Shown: positions 43,814 through 53,337 of the stretch, piece after piece
Position numbering within the stretch: position 1 is the first letter of the stretch
Layout: each line of letters begins with the position of its first letter
From: Prochlorococcus sp. AG-402-K16
GTDB taxonomy: Bacteria > Cyanobacteriota > Cyanobacteriia > PCC-6307 > Cyanobiaceae
Length of the DNA: 64,000 bases
Assembly: GCA_003216795.1 (NCBI GenBank)
Contig: QCIH01000003.1
Coordinates: forward strand, 1 to 64,000
Direction of reading: 5' to 3'
Program-made: the position numbers and the translations under genes
Notes under the pieces: generated by a model
Told to the model about the DNA's origin: nothing
The model's database searches: none
What the model saw: the letters and a program-made list of their open reading frames with translations, nothing else

Positions 43814-44269
43814 ATGAGAAATAATATTTCCAAGATTAATTGGATTTTGATTAATCGGTTTGCAATAGGCCCTCAGCCAAGTAACACATCAGATTTAAAT
43901 TTTCTAAAACAGAATAATATAAGGACTATATTTTCAGTTTGTTATGAGGATGAGATATTAATTCCAAAGGAAATAAAAGAATTTTTCAATCATAACGTTT
44001 GTAGCCTTCCTGATCATAAGAAAGGATATTTACCTACTAAAAAAGAAATAAATAAAACTATATTAATTCTTCATGATTTAATTTCTTTAGGTCCAGTTTA
44101 TATTCATTGTTTTGCAGGGGTAGAAAGATCACCTCTGATCTCAATGGCATATTTAATTAAATTTAGAAATTTAAAACCGCAACAGGCTTTAGATTATTTA
44201 ATGCAAGTTCATCCAGGTACTAATCCTCTAACAAATCAATTAAATTTGCTTAGTAAAATAAATAGTTAG
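43814..44269 (+). CDS. Dual-specificity-type protein tyrosine phosphatase
   Basis: The 151-residue product has VYIHCFAGVERSPLIS, the C-x5-R-S loop with Cys99, and LPDHKKG with Asp67 as a candidate general acid. This is the DSP/VH1-like class, not the low-molecular-weight Wzb class normally paired with Wzc. It lies 7 bases after the Wzc gene, so it probably dephosphorylates the Wzc tyrosine tail. Its stop overlaps by 4 bases the end of the convergent nucleotidyltransferase gene. Confidence 0.8.
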   Translation: MRNNISKINWILINRFAIGPQPSNTSDLNFLKQNNIRTIFSVCYEDEILIPKEIKEFFNHNVCSLPDHKKGYLPTKKEINKTILILHDLISLGPVYIHCFAGVERSPLISMAYLIKFRNLKPQQALDYLMQVHPGTNPLTNQLNLLSKINS

Positions 44270-45489
44270 CTTAGGAAATTAGAATTTTTTATAAATAATT
44301 TTAAATCAGATATTAATCTTTTTGTTTGATCAAGTATTGCTTGAAGTAAATTCTTATCTTTTCCTGTAATAGGATCATTAAAAGATGAGGGCAATAATAT
44401 AAACCCTAAAATAATTCTGAATTTATCTTTAAAATTATTTGTAATTCTAAGGTTTTTTTGAAAAATATCTTTATAGTCCCAAAAATTAAGTTTAGAATTT
44501 TTCATTTTTTTATTAAAAAATTTAATCTGACTTTTTCTAGAGATTTTTATTATTTTTTTTATATTCGGATTAGATTTATTGTGTTTTAAAAAATATGAAA
44601 TATATTGCGAATTAGTATAAAAGTAACATAAATCTAGGGTGTCTTTCATTAATGCATTAATTTTAAAGTCATTTTTATTATGAGTTATTATTTTTTTTAC
44701 TAGTAAATTAATATCGATTATGTTCTTTAAGCTATCCCAATTTCCTTTAGCTGAGTTGTAGCAGGCATATACTAATGAATCCCTAATGCCTAGGGTGTAA
44801 ATTTCTTGTCCACCGATAACATAAGACTCTTTCTTTTGCCATGCCTCTTCAAAATTGGGTAAATCATATCTACTTTTACAAAGCGACCAATGTAAATCAA
44901 TAATTTGTTTTTGATTAAAAATTGTTCTTTTTAATGGTAATTCATTTCTTACTTTTAAAGAGTATCTGCCACTTGCAGATTTTAAATCTTTAGGTAAATA
45001 TCCATAAACTCTATCGAAACCATTAATTTTTAGTAAGTTAATTACCTCAATAATATTTTCTTCTTTTACAAAGATATCGATATCCCCACAGCCTCTTGAA
45101 GATAATTTATTAGTAATTTGCAAAGAGAGAGGAATACCTTTGAATATTAAAATAGGTATTTTTTCAGAATGAAAAATTTTAGATAAATTTTTAATAGTAT
45201 TTGCAATAATTAAAGAACCAATTTTTTCTTCTCTCGCAATTTTACTGATCTCATTTCTCAATTCAGGTAGATATTTATCTAAGCTTTTATATTCACTAAA
45301 GAAAATAATTAATCCTTGATTTTTTAAGAATTTAAGAAGTTCATATTTAGAATAATTAGTAAATTTATTTTTTAAATAAAAAAATTTTCTCTTATAAGAT
45401 TTATTATTATTGCCTAGAATAATCCTAAGAATATAAATTGTAATTTGTTGATAATAACTTTGTTCCATTTTTTTTAATGAAATCATCAA
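44266..45489 (-). CDS. NTP_transf_5-family nucleotidyltransferase, last gene of the lasso operon
   Basis: The 407-residue product has IPILIFKGIPLSLQI (Lys-Gly motif) followed by SSRGCGDIDIFVK, whose Asp136/Asp138 pair is the metal site, and RTIFNQKQIIDLHWSLC with the D-L-H-W motif. This is the NTP_transf_5 family. In lasso clusters of the pseudomycoidin type, such an enzyme acts on the phosphorylated C-terminal Ser and transfers sugar or nucleotide units. It is the promoter-distal gene of a minus-strand run with HprK-like kinase, precursor, cyclase and exporter, so a tailoring role is likely. The end overlaps the phosphatase gene by 4 bases. Confidence 0.75.
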   Translation of the reverse strand: MMISLKKMEQSYYQQITIYILRIILGNNNKSYKRKFFYLKNKFTNYSKYELLKFLKNQGLIIFFSEYKSLDKYLPELRNEISKIAREEKIGSLIIANTIKNLSKIFHSEKIPILIFKGIPLSLQITNKLSSRGCGDIDIFVKEENIIEVINLLKINGFDRVYGYLPKDLKSASGRYSLKVRNELPLKRTIFNQKQIIDLHWSLCKSRYDLPNFEEAWQKKESYVIGGQEIYTLGIRDSLVYACYNSAKGNWDSLKNIIDINLLVKKIITHNKNDFKINALMKDTLDLCYFYTNSQYISYFLKHNKSNPNIKKIIKISRKSQIKFFNKKMKNSKLNFWDYKDIFQKNLRITNNFKDKFRIILGFILLPSSFNDPITGKDKNLLQAILDQTKRLISDLKLFIKNSNFLS

Positions 45490-45535: not shown

Positions 45536-47185
45536 TCAATCTATATTATTTAAATCTATTACTTTAGTCGCTAAATCAACTAATTTTGAATCATGAGTAG
45601 CAATTATAGTTATTTTATTTTTTGATCTTTCTTTGATTATTCTCTTTACAATGGATACTGAATCTTCATCTAGATATACGGTAGGTTCGTCAAGTATCTC
45701 TATATTTTTATTTTTAAACCAAGCTCTTATAAGACAGATTCTCTGAATCTCACCCCCAGAAAGAAAATCAGTTGTTAAATTTACTCTCTGATTTAATCCT
45801 TTATTTTTTACTAATAAATGTAAAAGATTTAATTGAGAAAACCATTTATTTATTAAAACATCATTTCTATTTAAATATTCTAGATCGTTATAATTATCCG
45901 TTTGCATAGTTATGTTCTCCCTTAGACTACCCTCGTACAAAATCCCTTTCTGTGGGGCATATGCTATTAAATTTTTTAATTTATTTGAATCTCTTATTCC
46001 TTTAAAAATTAATTTATTGTTTTTATTTATTAAATTCCATTTACTTGATTGTGGATTATTAAAACCCAATAAACTATCAATTAAAGTTGTTTTACCAGAA
46101 CCTGAGTCTCCTCTTATTATAAGAATTTCTCCTGAATTCAGAGAAATTTCCTTATTTTTTTCTGATGAAAACCAAGTAAATTTTTTAATTAAAGGAGATT
46201 TTCTAAAAAATATATTTTCTAGAATAATGTCGTCTGATTGAAGTTGCCTTTTTATCTTTTTATATTTTTCATAACCTGGCAAAGCTAATTTAACTCTTCT
46301 ATATGAGCTTATTATTAAACTCAGGGAGTTAGTGCATTTTAAACCAAAAACAATTGTTGCAGCTATTGTTTTATAATCTTTATTATTGCTATTGAACAAC
46401 CAAATACCAATAATAATTAATATAAATAAATCCCTGAATAAATCGAATATACCTTGTCTTTTTATATTTTGTCGAAGTATAGATCTATATTCTGTATTGT
46501 CATTAGTGAACCTTTCCATTATCCAATTTTCTGCTGATGCAGCTTTAATACCTTTTAAGCCATGCAAGCTATCTCCAAGAGTTCTTTGTAAGTCTATATT
46601 AAGTTTGCTTTCTAGATTGCCTAATTCTGTACTTTTTGATCTTTGAAATATTGCTGCAAGTAAAGTAGCTATTGAAGCAAAAAATATTATTATTAATGAA
46701 TTTTTAGTAAATATATTAAGAACTAAGAAATAAATAAAAAATGAAAGAAGTCCATTTAAAGAGGCAATTGATTGATCAAGGCTTATTATTGCTCCATTTA
46801 TATTATTTATCAATGATCCTAGAATTTCAGCTCTATTAATGTTTTTTAATTTATCAAAACTTCCGAAAATTGTATCTTTTAATAAAGATTGCCTAAGTGA
46901 ATCTTTAAATTCTGATCGTATTGATTCTTTTAAAATGGATACTATAAGTCTAATTATTCCTCTCATAAAAAGAAGAACTATTAATGTTAAGACCTTTTTT
47001 GAAATATCAAGGTTACTATTTGTAATTACTTCCGAATAAGAAGAATTAAATAAAATACCTATAGCAGTGCTTAGGCTGAAAAACTCTAAAATTGTTGAAA
47101 TTGCATTCAAAGATATTAATAATAAAAAAATATTTAAACCTGCTTCATCTATTATTTCTTTCAATAAATTAAAGGTTTTGCTCAT
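45536..47185 (-). CDS. ABC exporter of the lasso cluster (D protein)
   Basis: The 549-residue fused transporter has an N-terminal membrane domain of about 300 residues. The ATPase carries IRGDSGSGKTTLIDSLLG (Walker A), AYAPQKGILYEGSLRENI (Q-loop), DFLSGGEIQRICLIRAWF (signature), NIEILDEPTVYLDE (Walker B) and IATHD (H-loop). No N-terminal C39 peptidase domain is present, as in lasso D proteins, where a separate B2 protease cleaves the leader. It sits between the hydroxylase and nucleotidyltransferase genes. It should export, and confer immunity to, the mature peptide. Confidence 0.82.
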   Translation of the reverse strand: MSKTFNLLKEIIDEAGLNIFLLLISLNAISTILEFFSLSTAIGILFNSSYSEVITNSNLDISKKVLTLIVLLFMRGIIRLIVSILKESIRSEFKDSLRQSLLKDTIFGSFDKLKNINRAEILGSLINNINGAIISLDQSIASLNGLLSFFIYFLVLNIFTKNSLIIIFFASIATLLAAIFQRSKSTELGNLESKLNIDLQRTLGDSLHGLKGIKAASAENWIMERFTNDNTEYRSILRQNIKRQGIFDLFRDLFILIIIGIWLFNSNNKDYKTIAATIVFGLKCTNSLSLIISSYRRVKLALPGYEKYKKIKRQLQSDDIILENIFFRKSPLIKKFTWFSSEKNKEISLNSGEILIIRGDSGSGKTTLIDSLLGFNNPQSSKWNLINKNNKLIFKGIRDSNKLKNLIAYAPQKGILYEGSLRENITMQTDNYNDLEYLNRNDVLINKWFSQLNLLHLLVKNKGLNQRVNLTTDFLSGGEIQRICLIRAWFKNKNIEILDEPTVYLDEDSVSIVKRIIKERSKNKITIIATHDSKLVDLATKVIDLNNID

Positions 47186-47289: not shown

Positions 47290-47838
47290 TTACCTAGTGA
47301 TAATTATATTACAAGTAATTCGCCAATAATTTAATTCATCATTTTTTACAAAACCTCCATTGTGTTTAGTATTTGATTTAAAAATTACAAACCTGCCAGG
47401 CTTGTAGTCTAATTTCTTATCATTTATCATTAATTCGCCTCCATCATTTTGATCCCATACAGGGTTTAAAAAACCTAAAATTGTCCAGTCAGATGTATCA
47501 GTAGAATCAACGTGGTCAAAAGTTTTTGAGTTACTTGATTTAGCACCAATGTGTATTCTTTTAATTTTATTAGGAAGATATAAATTATATTTATTTTTTA
47601 AATCTTTTTTTAACCTAAAAATTATAGATTGAAAGTAACCTGATAAGTATTTTATGTTAATAGTCTCATTTGATTGTATTTCAAGTCCTGGAAAACCTGT
47701 AAATGCTAATCGACCTGCTCCGTCATTCAATGATGATCGTGTTAAAGACCAATTGGGAGTATCTAGTAACTTATGATATAACCAAAGCAACTCTTCAACT
47801 CCTAGGATATTGTCTACTATGTAAAAATCTTTATCCAT
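47290..47838 (-). CDS. 2-oxoglutarate/Fe(II) hydroxylase (prolyl-4-hydroxylase-like), lasso tailoring candidate
   Basis: The core fold has FDHVDSTDTSDWTILGFLN (H-x-D), QNDGGELMIND, KPGRFVIFKSNTKHNGG (distal His) and YWRITCNI (2-oxoglutarate Arg). I place the start at ATG 47838, just after the cyclase stop (47850). The frame is open upstream to a TTG at 47874, which would add 12 residues and overlap the cyclase. The product is about 182 residues. The gene follows the cyclase, so the likely target is the lasso peptide; the precursor has no Asn/Cys and only one Pro, in the leader. Confidence 0.72.
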   Translation of the reverse strand: MDKDFYIVDNILGVEELLWLYHKLLDTPNWSLTRSSLNDGAGRLAFTGFPGLEIQSNETINIKYLSGYFQSIIFRLKKDLKNKYNLYLPNKIKRIHIGAKSSNSKTFDHVDSTDTSDWTILGFLNPVWDQNDGGELMINDKKLDYKPGRFVIFKSNTKHNGGFVKNDELNYWRITCNIIITR

Positions 47839-47849
47839 AACAAATTTTT

Positions 47850-49388
47850 TTATTTCTCTAACTCTATTAGCCAATGATTAATTTTATCAATTTTGTTTAT
47901 TAACCAACAAACATTATTCAAATAATTAAAATCTTCATTATTTTTTAGTAGAGATTCTATGTTTGAAGTCAATAAGTTTAAATCAAACCATTTATGTATA
48001 AGGTTATGCCATCTGGAAATTGATTTATGACTTTCGTTCAAAATATTTTTTAAGATTATTCGACGATTTTCAATATCATCTTTACCAATATGTTTTTGTG
48101 GATTTCTTATAAAAAATTCATTTAAATATGGTTTAAAAACTTCTCTGATTAATGATCTGAGTTCTTTCGAATTTGTTGCAAAAATCTTTGTATTTTCTAT
48201 TGATAACAATAAAGATATGATATTTTCATCAAGCATTGGGTATAATTTTTTCATGCCATAATATTCTGCTAATCTTTTTTCCTCTTCTACTCTTAATGAT
48301 AACCAGTTCGAATTTAGAGATTTTCTGATGCTTTCTTGCACCTTTAAATTATTATATCTTTCTAAATTATCTGAAGCAGGAATATAGTTTTGTAGATATT
48401 CAAAACCTTCATTTGTAAGAAACTTTTTTACATAATAAGACTGACTATTTCTCGGGTATTTAAGAAATTTCTGAAAATTTTTAAATCTTTTAAACCAATA
48501 ATCATTAATATTTTTTTTAAAAATTATTTTTAAGGCATCTTTTTTACTGCCTGTCCATTTAAGTAGCTCACTAAAATTTCCTTTTTCAAATAAATCTATA
48601 CCAACGTTATTGCCCATGTTACTGAGTGCTTGATCACCCCCTAACCCGCTAAATATAAGTTCACAATTTGCTTCCTTTAGACTCTTTAATCCTGCTAAAT
48701 TTGCTCCTACTTGTAATGGTGCTCCAAATATCTTTAATAAATTTTTATCTTCGTTTTTATTATTTTTAATATCTTTTTTTAAACAATTCTTAGAAAATAG
48801 TTTATAAAAATCTCTTATGTCTTCAATTAATTTCAAATTTTCTCCTTGTGGAGAAGTCCAAGTGAAAATGCGATCTTTTTTAATATTTAATCCCAAAACT
48901 AAGCTTCCAACTATTGCGTTTGAGTCTATTCCTGAACTATGTTCACAACCTAAATTTCCATCAACATTTTTGAGATTGTTTTTTAGATTATTTAAAAAAG
49001 TATTTCTGATATTCAAATATATTTCTTGTTCATTAATATATTCATTATTAGTTTTTAAAAAAGGATTATAGGACTTAAGTTTAATATTATTATTTTTACT
49101 TAATTGAACAAAGCAAGATCTTGGAATTCTCTTGATTCTTTGGTAGGGAGAGATATTTGTACTGTGGTTATTGAATAATATTGATGCAATGTATGCTGGA
49201 TTGACATCCTTTATTTGTGCGTCTTCATGCATTCCATATGCCTCTTCCCATGATTTCAAGATATATCCTTCCTCATTGTCATAATGCTTTTTTGATGGGT
49301 ATGCTTGGAAAAGAGGTCTTAAATTTAGATAATCAGTTTTATATATGCCAGTTTCTAGAGGTTTTGGCTCTTTACTTGGTAATTTCAT
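47850..49388 (-). CDS. Lasso cyclase, asparagine-synthetase-like (C protein)
   Basis: The 512-residue product resembles asparagine synthetase B. The ATP-pyrophosphatase loop is GCEHSSGIDSNAIVG (residues 147-161), a variant of S-G-G-x-D-S. Then come FSGLGGDQALSN (residues 246-257) and LAEYYGMKKLYPMLDENIISLLL near residue 360. The N-terminus starts MKLPSKEP and lacks the Cys2 of a glutaminase domain, as in lasso cyclases, which activate a side-chain carboxylate and form a macrolactam instead of using glutamine. It lies between B2 protease and hydroxylase, in the canonical lasso neighbourhood. Confidence 0.82.
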   Translation of the reverse strand: MKLPSKEPKPLETGIYKTDYLNLRPLFQAYPSKKHYDNEEGYILKSWEEAYGMHEDAQIKDVNPAYIASILFNNHSTNISPYQRIKRIPRSCFVQLSKNNNIKLKSYNPFLKTNNEYINEQEIYLNIRNTFLNNLKNNLKNVDGNLGCEHSSGIDSNAIVGSLVLGLNIKKDRIFTWTSPQGENLKLIEDIRDFYKLFSKNCLKKDIKNNKNEDKNLLKIFGAPLQVGANLAGLKSLKEANCELIFSGLGGDQALSNMGNNVGIDLFEKGNFSELLKWTGSKKDALKIIFKKNINDYWFKRFKNFQKFLKYPRNSQSYYVKKFLTNEGFEYLQNYIPASDNLERYNNLKVQESIRKSLNSNWLSLRVEEEKRLAEYYGMKKLYPMLDENIISLLLSIENTKIFATNSKELRSLIREVFKPYLNEFFIRNPQKHIGKDDIENRRIILKNILNESHKSISRWHNLIHKWFDLNLLTSNIESLLKNNEDFNYLNNVCWLINKIDKINHWLIELEK

Positions 49389-49403: not shown

Positions 49404-49805
49404 TTAATTAAAATAATTTTCTGAGGCAGGCGATAAATTTATATTTTTATTTGGATCATTTAACCAACAATGACAATTGATTTCTCCAAGTTTTGTTTTT
49501 TCAGCTCCAAAGCATATTACATTTGGAATTGCTAGTAAATCTAGGAAACATTGCCCAGTAATTGATCTACTTAAGCATGTACTCATATTTTGATTTAATG
49601 AGCTTTTTTTATTTAATATTTTTATTATTATTTTTTTACAAAATAATTTTCTTTTTTCATTTAATCTTATTTGAAAACGTTTAATAGGTCTTTTTTGTAT
49701 GAGTTTTAAGATTACTTTCCCAGGTAAAATTTGTATTAGTAGCCAGAAGTTGAAGTCAATAAATTTAAATATTAAATAGATTAATTTTCTTATAAAGTAT
49801 TTCAT
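49404..49805 (-). CDS. Lasso leader peptidase (B2, transglutaminase-like)
   Basis: The 133-residue product has the B2 pattern. STCLSRSITGQCFLDLLAI supplies the catalytic Cys77, INCHCWLND carries His112 (usual form H-A-W) and Asp117 follows in the family position. The N-terminal 45 residues are basic and hydrophobic, as in split B2 proteins. It should cleave the leader of the peptide encoded at 51309-51464. It begins 15 bases after the PqqD-like stop, and ends 15 bases before the cyclase start. Confidence 0.85.
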   Translation of the reverse strand: MKYFIRKLIYLIFKFIDFNFWLLIQILPGKVILKLIQKRPIKRFQIRLNEKRKLFCKKIIIKILNKKSSLNQNMSTCLSRSITGQCFLDLLAIPNVICFGAEKTKLGEINCHCWLNDPNKNINLSPASENYFN

Positions 49806-49820
49806 ATACTTTTATAGTAT

Positions 49821-50078
49821 TTAAACGCTTTCAATCATTTTCAAATTTAAACATTGTGATATGAAATCTTTTGTTTCCAATTCACAAGTTTCTTTATCAA
49901 TATCAAATTCCTCTAATAGGTTATTTATTAGATAACTAATAGAAAAAGTTTCATCTATTTGTTTCCAAATAAAGGATCCTGTAGAGTTTAAATTTAAGTA
50001 TTTAGCTGTTTCAGTATGAAAAAGACATATCTCTCCATCTAATTCTGTAGATAATACACTCTTAGACTTTTGGTACAA
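49821..50078 (-). CDS. PqqD-like RiPP recognition element (lasso B1)
   Basis: The 85-residue product has the PqqD fold wording: LSTELDGEICLFHTETAKYL, NLNSTGSFIWKQID, ISYLINNLLEEFDID and CLNLKMIES. Stand-alone proteins of this kind bind RiPP leaders and hand them to the B2 protease and cyclase. It lies in the B1-B2-C order typical of split lasso systems. The short length is normal. Confidence 0.87.
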   Translation of the reverse strand: MYQKSKSVLSTELDGEICLFHTETAKYLNLNSTGSFIWKQIDETFSISYLINNLLEEFDIDKETCELETKDFISQCLNLKMIESV

Positions 50079-50112: not shown

Positions 50113-51285
50113 TTATTTTTTATTTAGCAAATCTAAAATTTGGGGGATTAATATATTGAAATTTGGATTGCCTTCAAGGAGAATCGGCTCATTTTTTGTT
50201 GGGATCCAGTCCCATGCGACTTTATTTATTTCTGGCAATCTAGAATGCATTTCAATCGAAGCATTTAAACAACTTTTTATATTTACATTTCTGCAGTTGG
50301 GTTCTTTCTCTTGATTAGTCCATTTATCGATTATGTATTGGTGAGATATATTATTAATTTTGTTGGAATTTATGTTAAAGAATTTTTTTGAAAAATAATC
50401 AATAAAATAAATTTTTTTGTCAAGACATATTTCAATCCAGCAGTTATCAACTTTTATTTCGATATTCGATAATTTCTTTTGAGTTATTACTCTTATAACT
50501 GCTGATGGACTACTCCATGCTAAAGAATAATCGTTTTTTATATATGGCATTAATATCGCATTAGTTTTATTCTTTGTAGTCTTCTGCCAGTGACTGTAAA
50601 GTGCATTAAGATCTTTATAATTGATATTTAAATATTTATATTTAGTCCCTGCGGAATTACAGAATAAATTACTTGCAAATAGTTTGTTATCAAATAATCT
50701 ATATAAAATTATGTCTTTAGATTTTGAACCATTATCTGGTTTTAAAATAAGACCTGTTACTTTTAAATATGGTAAGATTTTGTTCTTATAAAATTGATTT
50801 AAAAAAACATCTTTTTGTTTTTCTTTACTATTATTTAAAACTATGTGATATGGCTTCCATTTATTTGGGGAAATTTTATAGAGTGAGCTTTTGTTATTAA
50901 GTAAATTTATTCCTTCTTTACAATTATTTGACCAATATTTCCTCTCTTCTTTATTAATATACTTTACCATTTTATAGGGTTTAAAATTTTTTAACTCTTC
51001 CCACGTTTTTATATTAAATCTAGAATAAATTTCTAATTCTTTTAATTCAAATGAATTGATTATGCAACTAAAAATAAGAAACTTTCTATCTATGTTGTAA
51101 TCAAATAAAAAATAAATATATTTAATTAAACGAGAAATTATCCATCTTATTAATAATAAGAATTCAATTGGGAAATATATTATATTTCTTTCACCATATC
51201 TGTATATAAATCTATTTTTTATGGATATGGCAATTGGAGATGGAGAATTAATATATCTTTTTAATTTTCTTAATATATCATTCAA
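50113..51285 (-). CDS. ATP-grasp enzyme of sugar-transfer-associated type
   Basis: The 390-residue product has VTGLILKPDNGSKSKDIILY (ATP-grasp nucleotide strand), then in the C-terminal half VAWDWIPTKNEPILLEGNPNFNI. E-G-N-P-x-x-N is the metal-binding strand of the sugar-transfer-associated ATP-grasp family. The N-terminal 120 residues hold hydrophobic segments and are unassigned. It sits between the precursor gene and the PqqD-like gene, 23 bases from the precursor stop, so it is probably a tailoring ligase of the peptide, or a leftover of glycan context. This family is not the graspetide ligase type. Confidence 0.6.
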   Translation of the reverse strand: MNDILRKLKRYINSPSPIAISIKNRFIYRYGERNIIYFPIEFLLLIRWIISRLIKYIYFLFDYNIDRKFLIFSCIINSFELKELEIYSRFNIKTWEELKNFKPYKMVKYINKEERKYWSNNCKEGINLLNNKSSLYKISPNKWKPYHIVLNNSKEKQKDVFLNQFYKNKILPYLKVTGLILKPDNGSKSKDIILYRLFDNKLFASNLFCNSAGTKYKYLNINYKDLNALYSHWQKTTKNKTNAILMPYIKNDYSLAWSSPSAVIRVITQKKLSNIEIKVDNCWIEICLDKKIYFIDYFSKKFFNINSNKINNISHQYIIDKWTNQEKEPNCRNVNIKSCLNASIEMHSRLPEINKVAWDWIPTKNEPILLEGNPNFNILIPQILDLLNKK

Positions 51286-51308: not shown

Positions 51309-51464
51309 TTAACTTCCAATAGTATCTGAAGTTTTCCCCTCTGTTTTTCTTCCTTCAAACACTCCTTCAATAAACTCACCTTTAGAATATGTATTTTTAA
51401 GTTCTAATGTATCAATAGATGGCTTGAACCATTTTCTTTTTTTCTTTTGATTAGAAAATTCCAT
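51309..51464 (-). CDS. Lasso peptide precursor (A), 51 residues
   Basis: A previously unmarked small gene from ATG 51464 to TAA 51309. The leader contains KWFKPSIDTLELKNT (residues 11-25), matching the lasso leader pattern of aromatic-x-x-P, hydrophobic spacing and a Thr near the cleavage site. The core follows: YSKGEFIEGVFEG (residues 26-38), then RKTEGKTSDTIGS (39-51). Acidic Glu33 and Glu37 are ring-closure candidates. If Thr25 is at position -2 the core starts with Ser27 and Glu33 is position 7; starting with Tyr26 gives Glu33 at 8; starting with Gly29 gives Glu37 at 9. The last residue is Ser, as in kinase-modified lasso peptides. It lies in the middle of a cluster with B1, B2, C and D genes. 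Too short for ordinary gene calling. Confidence 0.8.
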   Translation of the reverse strand: MEFSNQKKKRKWFKPSIDTLELKNTYSKGEFIEGVFEGRKTEGKTSDTIGS

Positions 51465-51518: not shown

Positions 51519-52427
51519 TCATGTATAACTATATTTTTCTAAAGTCTCTTTAAAATTAGATGTAATATTTTTATATTCGTTTGGAGAAAGTTTTTCTTTA
51601 CCTTCTCCCAATATACCAGATCTAAAAAAACTATTACATGAATCTGGTCTCTCACTAAATCCATATTTACTTTCAATTTTTTTAAGCCTTTTGAAATCAG
51701 CATTAATCATTGTCTTAGATATTAATTCTTCATCAATAGGCAATCTGATAAATTTTAAAATTCGTTTAAAGAAAATTCTTGGATTTGTGTGAAGGTCTTC
51801 ATATTTAAGGACTAAAATAGGTATTTTCTTTTGTTCCGTCCAACTTTTAACGTGATGTTCCCATGTACCAAGAAATTGATAAACTTGCTTATGAATTTTA
51901 TCTTTGTTCCCAGCTAATGAAGCCTTTTTATTCACTAAAAATTTGACTGAATCAGTGTATGATATGTTCAGAAAATTGCTTAAAGAGATTGCAATATCTG
52001 CAGGATGTCTAATTAGATAAATGACGCCGGCGCAATTTTCATATGGAACTAAATAATTTTTTTTGTTAGATATCTTATAGAAACTATCATGAACTTTATG
52101 GTATCTAGGATTGTCATCGAAAATTTTCTTGTTTAAACCAATATGTATTCTTATCTTATCAAGTTCTTCTTTAGTTAAATCACTACTATCAATTCCTAAT
52201 TGATCATCAATCCAACTCCTATTGCTTAAAATTAGCCCAGTGTCTAATTGAATGTTATTCTCCTCAACAATCTCATCTTTATTTTTTTTAGCTTTAACTA
52301 AGTTAATATATGTTGCTATTAATATCCTGCACCAAGTATTACCTGATCGAGGATAGCTTGCAATATACCAATAATCAATCTCTTCTTGGCCTTTAAAATG
52401 ATTTTTATCTAATTTTGAATTTATCAA
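51519..52427 (-). CDS. PAPS-dependent sulfotransferase, lasso tailoring candidate
   Basis: The 302-residue product has IASYPRSGNTWCRILIATY, the 5'-phosphosulfate loop, and CAGVIYLIRHPADIAISLSN, the 3'-phosphate motif with R-x-P, as in sulfotransferase domain 1 proteins. The start is TTG 52427, directly after the kinase stop; no early ATG exists. It is 54 bases upstream of the precursor gene. Substrate is inferred to be the peptide (Tyr26, Ser or Thr), but a glycan is possible because the locus is also a polysaccharide island. Confidence 0.72.
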   Translation of the reverse strand: MINSKLDKNHFKGQEEIDYWYIASYPRSGNTWCRILIATYINLVKAKKNKDEIVEENNIQLDTGLILSNRSWIDDQLGIDSSDLTKEELDKIRIHIGLNKKIFDDNPRYHKVHDSFYKISNKKNYLVPYENCAGVIYLIRHPADIAISLSNFLNISYTDSVKFLVNKKASLAGNKDKIHKQVYQFLGTWEHHVKSWTEQKKIPILVLKYEDLHTNPRIFFKRILKFIRLPIDEELISKTMINADFKRLKKIESKYGFSERPDSCNSFFRSGILGEGKEKLSPNEYKNITSNFKETLEKYSYT

Positions 52428-52428
52428 T

Positions 52429-53337
52429 TTAACTATTATCTATTAAATCAAATTTCTTTAAATCTTTTTTCATAACATTTATGTTATTGGGTAAGGATAA
52501 AATACTTACATTTAATGAGTTTTGCATATTAGTTATAGTTTGAAATGTAAATCCTTCTTTACCAAGACCTCTTACAAATCTAGGTCTAAATAGGTTATTT
52601 CTTAATCCAATAAATACGGCTTTTTGATTATCAATAGAGTGTTCTACTATTTTTGATTGTTTCTTGTTTACAAGTAGATATATTTTTTCTATTTTGATAG
52701 GTTTACTCATGTTGTAATTTTTTTTATCTACGAGGATATATTTATTGATTTTATTTCTAACTCGAGAAAGTTTGTCCGAATCTAATTTAAAAGCATCAAC
52801 AGCATCTTGCCAAAGCTTAATTCTTGGTATCCCTGGCAAAACTAAATTAGATTTAACTGCTACTAAGTCATCAGATATAAGATCCCAACCTATTTCAGTT
52901 AAAGCATAAGCCAATGTGCTTTTACCTGCTCCAGATTCCCCTAGACAAATTATTGCTTTTCCGTTTTTAGAGAGAGCATTGCCATGAAAAACAAGCGTCT
53001 TTCTTTGGATTAAAATTGAACCTAATCCAGATCCCAGTATTATATTAAGAATATCTCTATTAGGAATAGTAAGATGCTTATCCCAGGCGATCTTATTCCC
53101 ATTTGTTATTCTCAATGACCCAATCCCCTCAATAGTTAATCTGATTTCCTCTTTCGCAATTTTTATAAAATAAGTATCCTCCTTTGTCTCTTGTAATCTA
53201 GGCCATAAAGATGAATCTTCTTTTTTAACTTCAACATCTGGTTTGATTTTAGATTTTGTTTCTGGAAGGTCCGGAATTTCTAGATCTTCAGAATGTAAAA
53301 TAAGATTAAAAACTTTATATCTATATATTTTTGTCAA
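52429..53337 (-). CDS. HprK-like serine kinase of the lasso cluster
   Basis: The 302-residue product has FHGNALSKNGKAIICLGESG (strand plus P-loop start), GESGAGKST at residues 133-141, WDLISDDLVAV with a D-D pair, and GIPRIKLWQDA. This is the HPr-kinase-like C-terminal domain in the form found in RiPP clusters. Paeninodin-type kinases of this family phosphorylate the C-terminal Ser of a lasso precursor, and the precursor here ends in Ser. The start is TTG 53337. It is the first gene of the minus-strand cluster. Confidence 0.8.
   Translation of the reverse strand: MTKIYRYKVFNLILHSEDLEIPDLPETKSKIKPDVEVKKEDSSLWPRLQETKEDTYFIKIAKEEIRLTIEGIGSLRITNGNKIAWDKHLTIPNRDILNIILGSGLGSILIQRKTLVFHGNALSKNGKAIICLGESGAGKSTLAYALTEIGWDLISDDLVAVKSNLVLPGIPRIKLWQDAVDAFKLDSDKLSRVRNKINKYILVDKKNYNMSKPIKIEKIYLLVNKKQSKIVEHSIDNQKAVFIGLRNNLFRPRFVRGLGKEGFTFQTITNMQNSLNVSILSLPNNINVMKKDLKKFDLIDNS

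Follow-up and report, generated by a model that had tools for sequence, protein, structure and literature searches.

A sulfotransferase in a picocyanobacterial lasso-peptide operon is the near-constant partner of an HPr-kinase homologue and probably acts on the peptide

Results

The operon and its sulfotransferase

The window (the whole stretch of 64,000 nucleotides analyzed here) comes from a genome of 1.67 Mb in 51 contigs and carries an operon in the order HPr-kinase (HPrK) homologue, sulfotransferase (hereafter ST), precursor peptide, ATP-grasp protein, PqqD/RRE protein, leader peptidase B2, cyclase, 2OG oxygenase, ABC exporter and NTP-transferase, all on the minus strand and with intergenic gaps of no more than 104 bp down to the last gene. 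The ST gene (51519..52427) has a TTG start 1 bp downstream of the HPrK homologue, ends 54 bp upstream of the precursor and encodes 302 amino acids in a frame that is open from end to end. The protein matches Pfam PF00685 (Sulfotransfer_1) over residues 22-298 (E 7.5e-20; 71.8 bits versus a curated cut-off of 22) and contains, intact, the motifs YPRSGNTW at position 25, KVHD at 111, RHPADIAISLSN at 140 and FFRSGxxGEG at 267, which we take, from general knowledge of SULTs, to be PAPS-binding and catalytic; their residues are invariant in an alignment of 11 sequences except for R27/K27. A profile search of the PDB returned the glycopeptide sulfotransferases TEG12 and Teg14 as best matches, along with SULTs, and an AlphaFold model of middling quality (pLDDT 65.8) was matched by Foldseek to SULT folds and to TEG12/StaL. 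Profile, PAPS motifs and the SULT fold of the model together place ST among the PAPS-dependent sulfotransferases of PF00685; the original prediction of such an enzyme directly upstream of the precursor, in the same transcription unit, is borne out by the short gap and the common strand. Promoter and terminator scans gave signals no better than shuffle level.

The HPrK homologue (52429..53337, 302 aa) is of the lasso C-terminal-Ser kinase type, with the Walker A sequence GESGAGKS, an SDDL motif and two profile matches below cut-off (PF07475, E 1.3e-6; NCBIfam HprK_rel_A, E 1.1e-10). It was absent from the original prediction but emerged as the main partner of ST. On the other side of ST, an ORF and motif scan identified the lasso precursor (51309..51464), a peptide of 51 aa with the leader motif WFKPSIDTL and a C-terminal Ser51. 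It is followed by an ATPgrasp_ST-like protein (50113..51285; PF14397, E 1.4e-6, below cut-off), homologues of which occur in three other cyanobacterial lasso loci (L022, L024, L053), by the PqqD/RRE protein (49821..50078; PF05402, E 2.2e-15; NF033536 lasso_PqqD, E 1.2e-16, below the curated cut-off), by B2 (49404..49805; PF13471, E 2.1e-6; NF033537, E 1.9e-7, 31.5 bits versus a cut-off of 33) and by an asparagine-synthase-like lasso cyclase of 512 aa (47850..49388). The latter has the SSGIDS motif and matches PF00733 at E 0.001 (below cut-off) and NF033535 at E 2e-9 (far below cut-off); every lasso cluster of the family has a homologue of it. A 2OG-Fe(II) oxygenase gene (47290..47874; PF13640, E 4.4e-7) overlaps the cyclase gene by 25 bp and possibly encodes an extra tailoring enzyme that hydroxylates the peptide. 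The ABC exporter (45536..47185; PF00005, E 2.6e-20) and an NTP_transf_5 nucleotidyltransferase (44266..45489; PF14907, E 1.7e-28), a kind of gene known from paeninodin and pseudomycoidin clusters, complete the operon.

As some of these profile scores lie under curated cut-offs, the lasso identity of the operon rests on the gene set as a whole, namely PqqD, B2, the weak asparagine-synthase/lasso-cyclase match and homology to other such clusters, with RRE, B2, cyclase and a precursor bearing a WxxP/YxxP leader present together. On this footing ST indeed lies within a lasso operon, as first proposed, and the kinase homologue (weak profile plus Walker A) and the core ending in Ser51 assign the cluster to the HPrK-tailored, paeninodin-like type.

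ST is paired with HPrK and PqqD across loci

We assembled loci from scanned species genomes of bacteria and archaea (21 loci), five plasmid records and the genomes of the family, and examined 36 after removal of repeats. An HPrK homologue adjoins ST on the same strand, at a distance of at most 82 bp, in 34 of these 36 loci, which were collected by ST similarity, HPrK being sought mainly in their vicinity; the two without an adjacent HPrK are L036, where the contig end cuts it, and the plasmid locus L162. PqqD is present in 30 of the 36. The paired loci span cyanobacteria, Bacteroidota (arranged HPrK-ST-PqqD-B2), Desulfobacterota (a Desulforapulum MAG whose precursor ends in STYS), Verrucomicrobiota (also a MAG) and alphaproteobacteria, the latter with plasmid loci that include a Thalassobaculum plasmid with annotated lasso genes. 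Among 251 genomes of the family, ST was matched in 16 and the HPrK homologue likewise in 16, with 15 common to both; of the unshared genomes, the contig of G105 ends inside ST and G155 has a marginal HPrK match and no ST. PqqD occurs in all 16 ST-positive genomes versus none of the 21 ST-negative genomes tested. Distance matrices of ST and HPrK correlate with r 0.95 over 31 pairs, a value uncorrected for shared ancestry. As a small negative control (n=4), the distant cyanobacterial sulfotransferases L070-L073 gave no HPrK match within about 1.5 kb. Judged by gene neighborhoods, the pairing of ST with the HPrK homologue is close to obligate in several phyla.

The lasso cyclase was found at five places in four of the 251 family genomes, each time (5/5) with ST within about 13 kb. 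Two loci showed additional features: the lasso region L135 of genome G075 has two NTP-transferases and two HPrK homologues, one of the latter broken into two frames, a pattern that points to duplication and decay, and L158 on the Tistrella plasmid pTM1 carries, upstream of HPrK-ST, two unannotated WxxP precursor-like ORFs that end in Ser, as well as a second sulfotransferase gene nearby, with no cyclase match within the 14.8 kb examined.

Precursor peptides

All 13 precursor-like peptides from HPrK-ST loci carry WxxP and end in Ser; other Y/W/FxxP frames were dropped if they lay outside the cluster, within larger genes or on the strand opposite to such genes, and the precursors of L040, L053 and L058 were chosen by eye, in a selection that was not blind but did not knowingly use the terminal residue. 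Apart from this terminal Ser, no hydroxyl position could be aligned in all 13 cores. In seven of the 13, Tyr is missing beyond the leader motif, and Tyr as a conserved acceptor was rejected on these grounds. Leader cleavage in lasso precursors follows a rule of Thr at position -2, which puts the core start of the window peptide at S27, while a 9-residue ring closing on E37 puts it at G29; by reading of the sequence, the ring acceptor could be E33 (from S27) or E37 (from G29). Tyr26 precedes both starts. With Tyr26 outside the core and Tyr not conserved, sulfation, if it takes place on the peptide itself, would most likely concern a Ser or Thr of the core, a possibility that had been offered from the outset. 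The other serious candidate is a phosphosugar built on Ser51.

Two classes of cassette

The ST loci with a cyclase homologue (class A: the window, L022, L024, L038, L135/L023 and L053) are lasso clusters. Most ST homologues of Synechococcus and Prochlorococcus belong instead to class B cassettes, HPrK-ST-GNAT with a convergent PqqD, with no cyclase or B2 match in the flanks examined. The original prediction had weighed the case that most homologues would neighbor glycan genes and have no lasso core in their vicinity: the second part of this description does apply to most cyanobacterial homologues, for which no lasso cyclase is present, but these form part of HPrK-ST-GNAT-PqqD cassettes. In the ST tree, class B forms one clade (100/100) with the cyanobacterial class A rows around it. 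We lean towards a derivation of the class B from the lasso cassette, which can only be a lean because the root is a midpoint root and several branches are long.

Class B cassettes usually have as neighbors beta-barrel-like proteins, which begin with a segment resembling a signal peptide and have a beta-rich predicted body; the tails of these proteins read KKxWxxPxIxAL...NRDVRVHD followed by a variable end. In genomes free of the cassette, the motif Trp is absent from members of this barrel family (QQLPVINALTSTPSNRDVRVHD and similar). Taking the best-matching protein of each of 30 genomes, the tail WxxP was present in 12 of 12 genomes with a cassette versus 0 of 18 without (Fisher p 1.2e-8); these 30 are the genomes returning a locus out of 49 with a barrel match, the other 19 being left out, and one of the 18, G236, was classed as cassette-free from the ST and HPrK searches, as it lay outside the PqqD search. 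Within five genera, the motif comes and goes with the cassette (within-genus exact p 1.6e-5, assuming independence within genera). Conserved Thr/Ser residues of the tails are common to tailed proteins with and without WxxP, so that no acceptor can be named from the tails. One genome with a barrel-type cassette, G044, gave no more than a weak match to the barrel (E 9.7e-27, in an 817-aa frame), and no tailed protein was found in it. Three MAG loci labeled gammaproteobacterial (L047, L048, L052) also carry the barrel-type cassette; the barrel of L047 is 62% identical to a Synechococcus barrel and L047 may be a misbinned contig, while no WxxP-tailed protein was seen in the examined flanks of L048 and L052.

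AlphaFold modeled the barrel family poorly (pLDDT 35.6), and we therefore make no claim as to its fold; a PDB profile search gave a single match at chance level (E 0.19), and no Pfam or NCBIfam family scored above cut-off. That these proteins might be inverse autotransporters is an idea from reading the sequences. Multicopy Cyanobiaceae proteins of this signal-peptide, beta-rich kind, with NRDVRVHD followed by hypervariable C-terminal ends, were noted at L030, L027, L033, L025, L035 and other loci. Separately, L037 of G075 contains two class B cassettes in tandem, whose identical ST rows are separated by 4.9 kb and of which the second has an HPrK matched only in part, and L029 (G029:C27:38 kb) holds a cassette remnant, a second ST that has decayed and contains several stops, next to which lie a fragment of GNAT and a truncated barrel.

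Discussion

We consider it fairly probable that ST belongs to an RRE-guided kinase/sulfotransferase module, in which it serves as dedicated peptide sulfotransferase, and that in the window it probably adds sulfate to the lasso peptide. In the sequence of events that we propose, the PqqD protein would bind the WFKP leader motif and present the precursor, the HPrK homologue would phosphorylate the C-terminal Ser51, and ST would transfer the sulfuryl group of PAPS onto a hydroxyl in the still linear core, most likely that of a tail Ser or Thr (T41, T45, S46 or T48) and not that of Tyr26; a less likely target would be the group that kinase and NTP-transferase assemble on Ser51. Afterwards B2 would cut, the cyclase would close the lasso and the ABC exporter would secrete the product. 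The kinase step has a precedent in known lasso clusters, where HPrK homologues phosphorylate the C-terminal Ser on the linear precursor, according to review PMC8498205.

Among the other readings, an unlikely one that nonetheless merits attention has ST acting on a sugar or phosphosugar that the NTP-transferase has put on the phosphorylated C-terminal Ser, giving a sulfated phospho-hexose peptide. The same review describes the model for this, pseudomycoidin, in which a nucleotidyltransferase adds one or more hexoses to the phosphate (PMC8498205), and NTP_transf_5 is encoded in the window operon and at five other cyanobacterial HPrK-ST loci (L022, L024, L038, L135, L040). However, no NTP-transferase match was obtained at the HPrK-ST pairs of any barrel-type cassette, nor at the Bacteroidota, Verrucomicrobiota and Desulfobacterota loci, and ST hence cannot generally require this enzyme.

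It is improbable that ST is a decayed or non-catalytic passenger, kept only as part of a horizontally moving cassette. The window copy is AT-rich, divergent, placed on a long branch and begins with TTG, and no APS kinase, the source of PAPS, was found in the source assembly. Yet its frame is open over the full length with its motifs intact and, but for R27/K27, invariant. As the assembly is 92.5% complete and an APS kinase is present in 26 of 26 other genomes tested, its absence is likely an assembly gap; a trait of the genus was rejected as explanation, since 15 of the 26 belong to the same genus and have the gene.

Slightly less probable still is the main alternative of the original prediction, a glycan acceptor, with ST modifying the neighboring surface polysaccharide and its operon position due to chance insertion into a glycan island. 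Marine bacteria do possess sulfated glycans, and GDP-fucose, UDP-sugar and GDP-mannose genes start 353 bp upstream of the operon. However, all 16 same-genus genomes have the GDP-fucose synthase found beside the operon and one of these 16 has ST; by this marker and the tracking of HPrK, ST shows no conserved linkage to polysaccharide genes. The original prediction had proposed asking whether, in related strains, the gene travels with the precursor or with the glycan genes; it accompanies the HPrK homologue and the cyclase at the frequencies given above, and since it tracks HPrK/PqqD in this way, the glycan reading is unlikely and the assignment of ST to the peptide pathway, not to the glycan island, is supported by gene context. 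Sulfation of Tyr26, put forward in the original prediction and recalling RaxX-like bacterial sulfopeptides in which Tyr is the acceptor, is the least probable reading, for the residue is present in the window precursor but lies ahead of either plausible core start, and more than half of the precursors have no Tyr after the motif.

The cluster shares with those of the paeninodin/SyanK/ThcoK type the WxxP leader, the C-terminal Ser, the HPrK homologue, the PqqD RRE, B2, cyclase, ABC exporter and NTP-transferase, but adds ST, the ATP-grasp protein and the 2OG oxygenase, and its host, to judge from genome size, base composition and kin, is a Prochlorococcus-like picocyanobacterium. Pseudomycoidin, a phosphoglycosylated lasso peptide, likewise combines kinase and nucleotidyltransferase in one operon with a C-terminal Ser, ST being the extra element here. 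TEG12, Teg14 and StaL are bacterial PAPS enzymes working on peptide natural products; their substrates are nonribosomal glycopeptides and what they have in common with ST is fold and motifs only. By description, ST may also be likened to RaxST, a sulfotransferase acting on a ribosomal bacterial peptide: RaxST/RaxX is a sulfated RiPP system in which Tyr is modified, whereas Tyr is not conserved in the precursors studied here. The LPP RiPPs of Bacillota, as PMC13381572 describes them, share the logic of RRE, HPrK and NTP-transferase outside lasso cyclization and a Y/WxxP leader; the feature that defines them is a signal-peptidase-I-like leader peptidase, and the likeness noted here concerns the other genes. 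The same paper states that W or Y in the leader motif decides the choice of RRE in Bacillota, W being typical of paeninodin-like leaders. A further difference from the LPP RiPPs is seen in the barrel cassettes, where WxxP belongs to the C-terminal tail of proteins that begin with a signal-peptide-like segment.

The association of sulfotransferase and lasso genes is not new, as it is already in print: PMC8498205 mentions, after Zhu et al. 2016, HPrK-type lasso clusters of Firmicutes that open with a putative sulfotransferase gene, an arrangement like that of the window as far as the description goes, and PMC4289311 mentions sulfotransferases in lasso clusters of anaerobes. Among the literature matches listed, which mostly do not cover subscription papers, there was no proof of a sulfated lasso peptide, in agreement with the earlier statement that no well-described example is known. 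In a RiPP survey of marine Synechococcus (PMC10783134) the words lasso, sulfotransferase and PqqD do not occur, and the matches listed held nothing on RRE motifs in tails of outer-membrane proteins.

Sulfotransferase genes in lasso clusters have been on record for years with no demonstrated product among those matches. The near-obligate pairing of ST with HPrK now leads to a clear assay, combining precursor, HPrK, ST and PAPS, with many precursors to try. In sister species, the target of the HPrK-ST pair seems to have shifted to tails carried by proteins of the cell surface. A broader proposition, which we judge to be evenly poised between right and wrong, is that HPrK, ST and RRE form a portable peptide-modification module independent of lasso cyclization, and that in marine Synechococcus and Prochlorococcus this module was transferred from lasso precursors to a multicopy family of beta-barrel-like surface proteins with signal peptides. 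The C-terminal tails of this family would have gained the WxxP motif for RRE binding, such that RiPP machinery would phosphorylate and/or sulfate tails of outer-membrane proteins. If this holds true, RiPP recognition logic would serve to modify large surface proteins, with possible relevance to the surface variation of picocyanobacteria towards phages and grazers.
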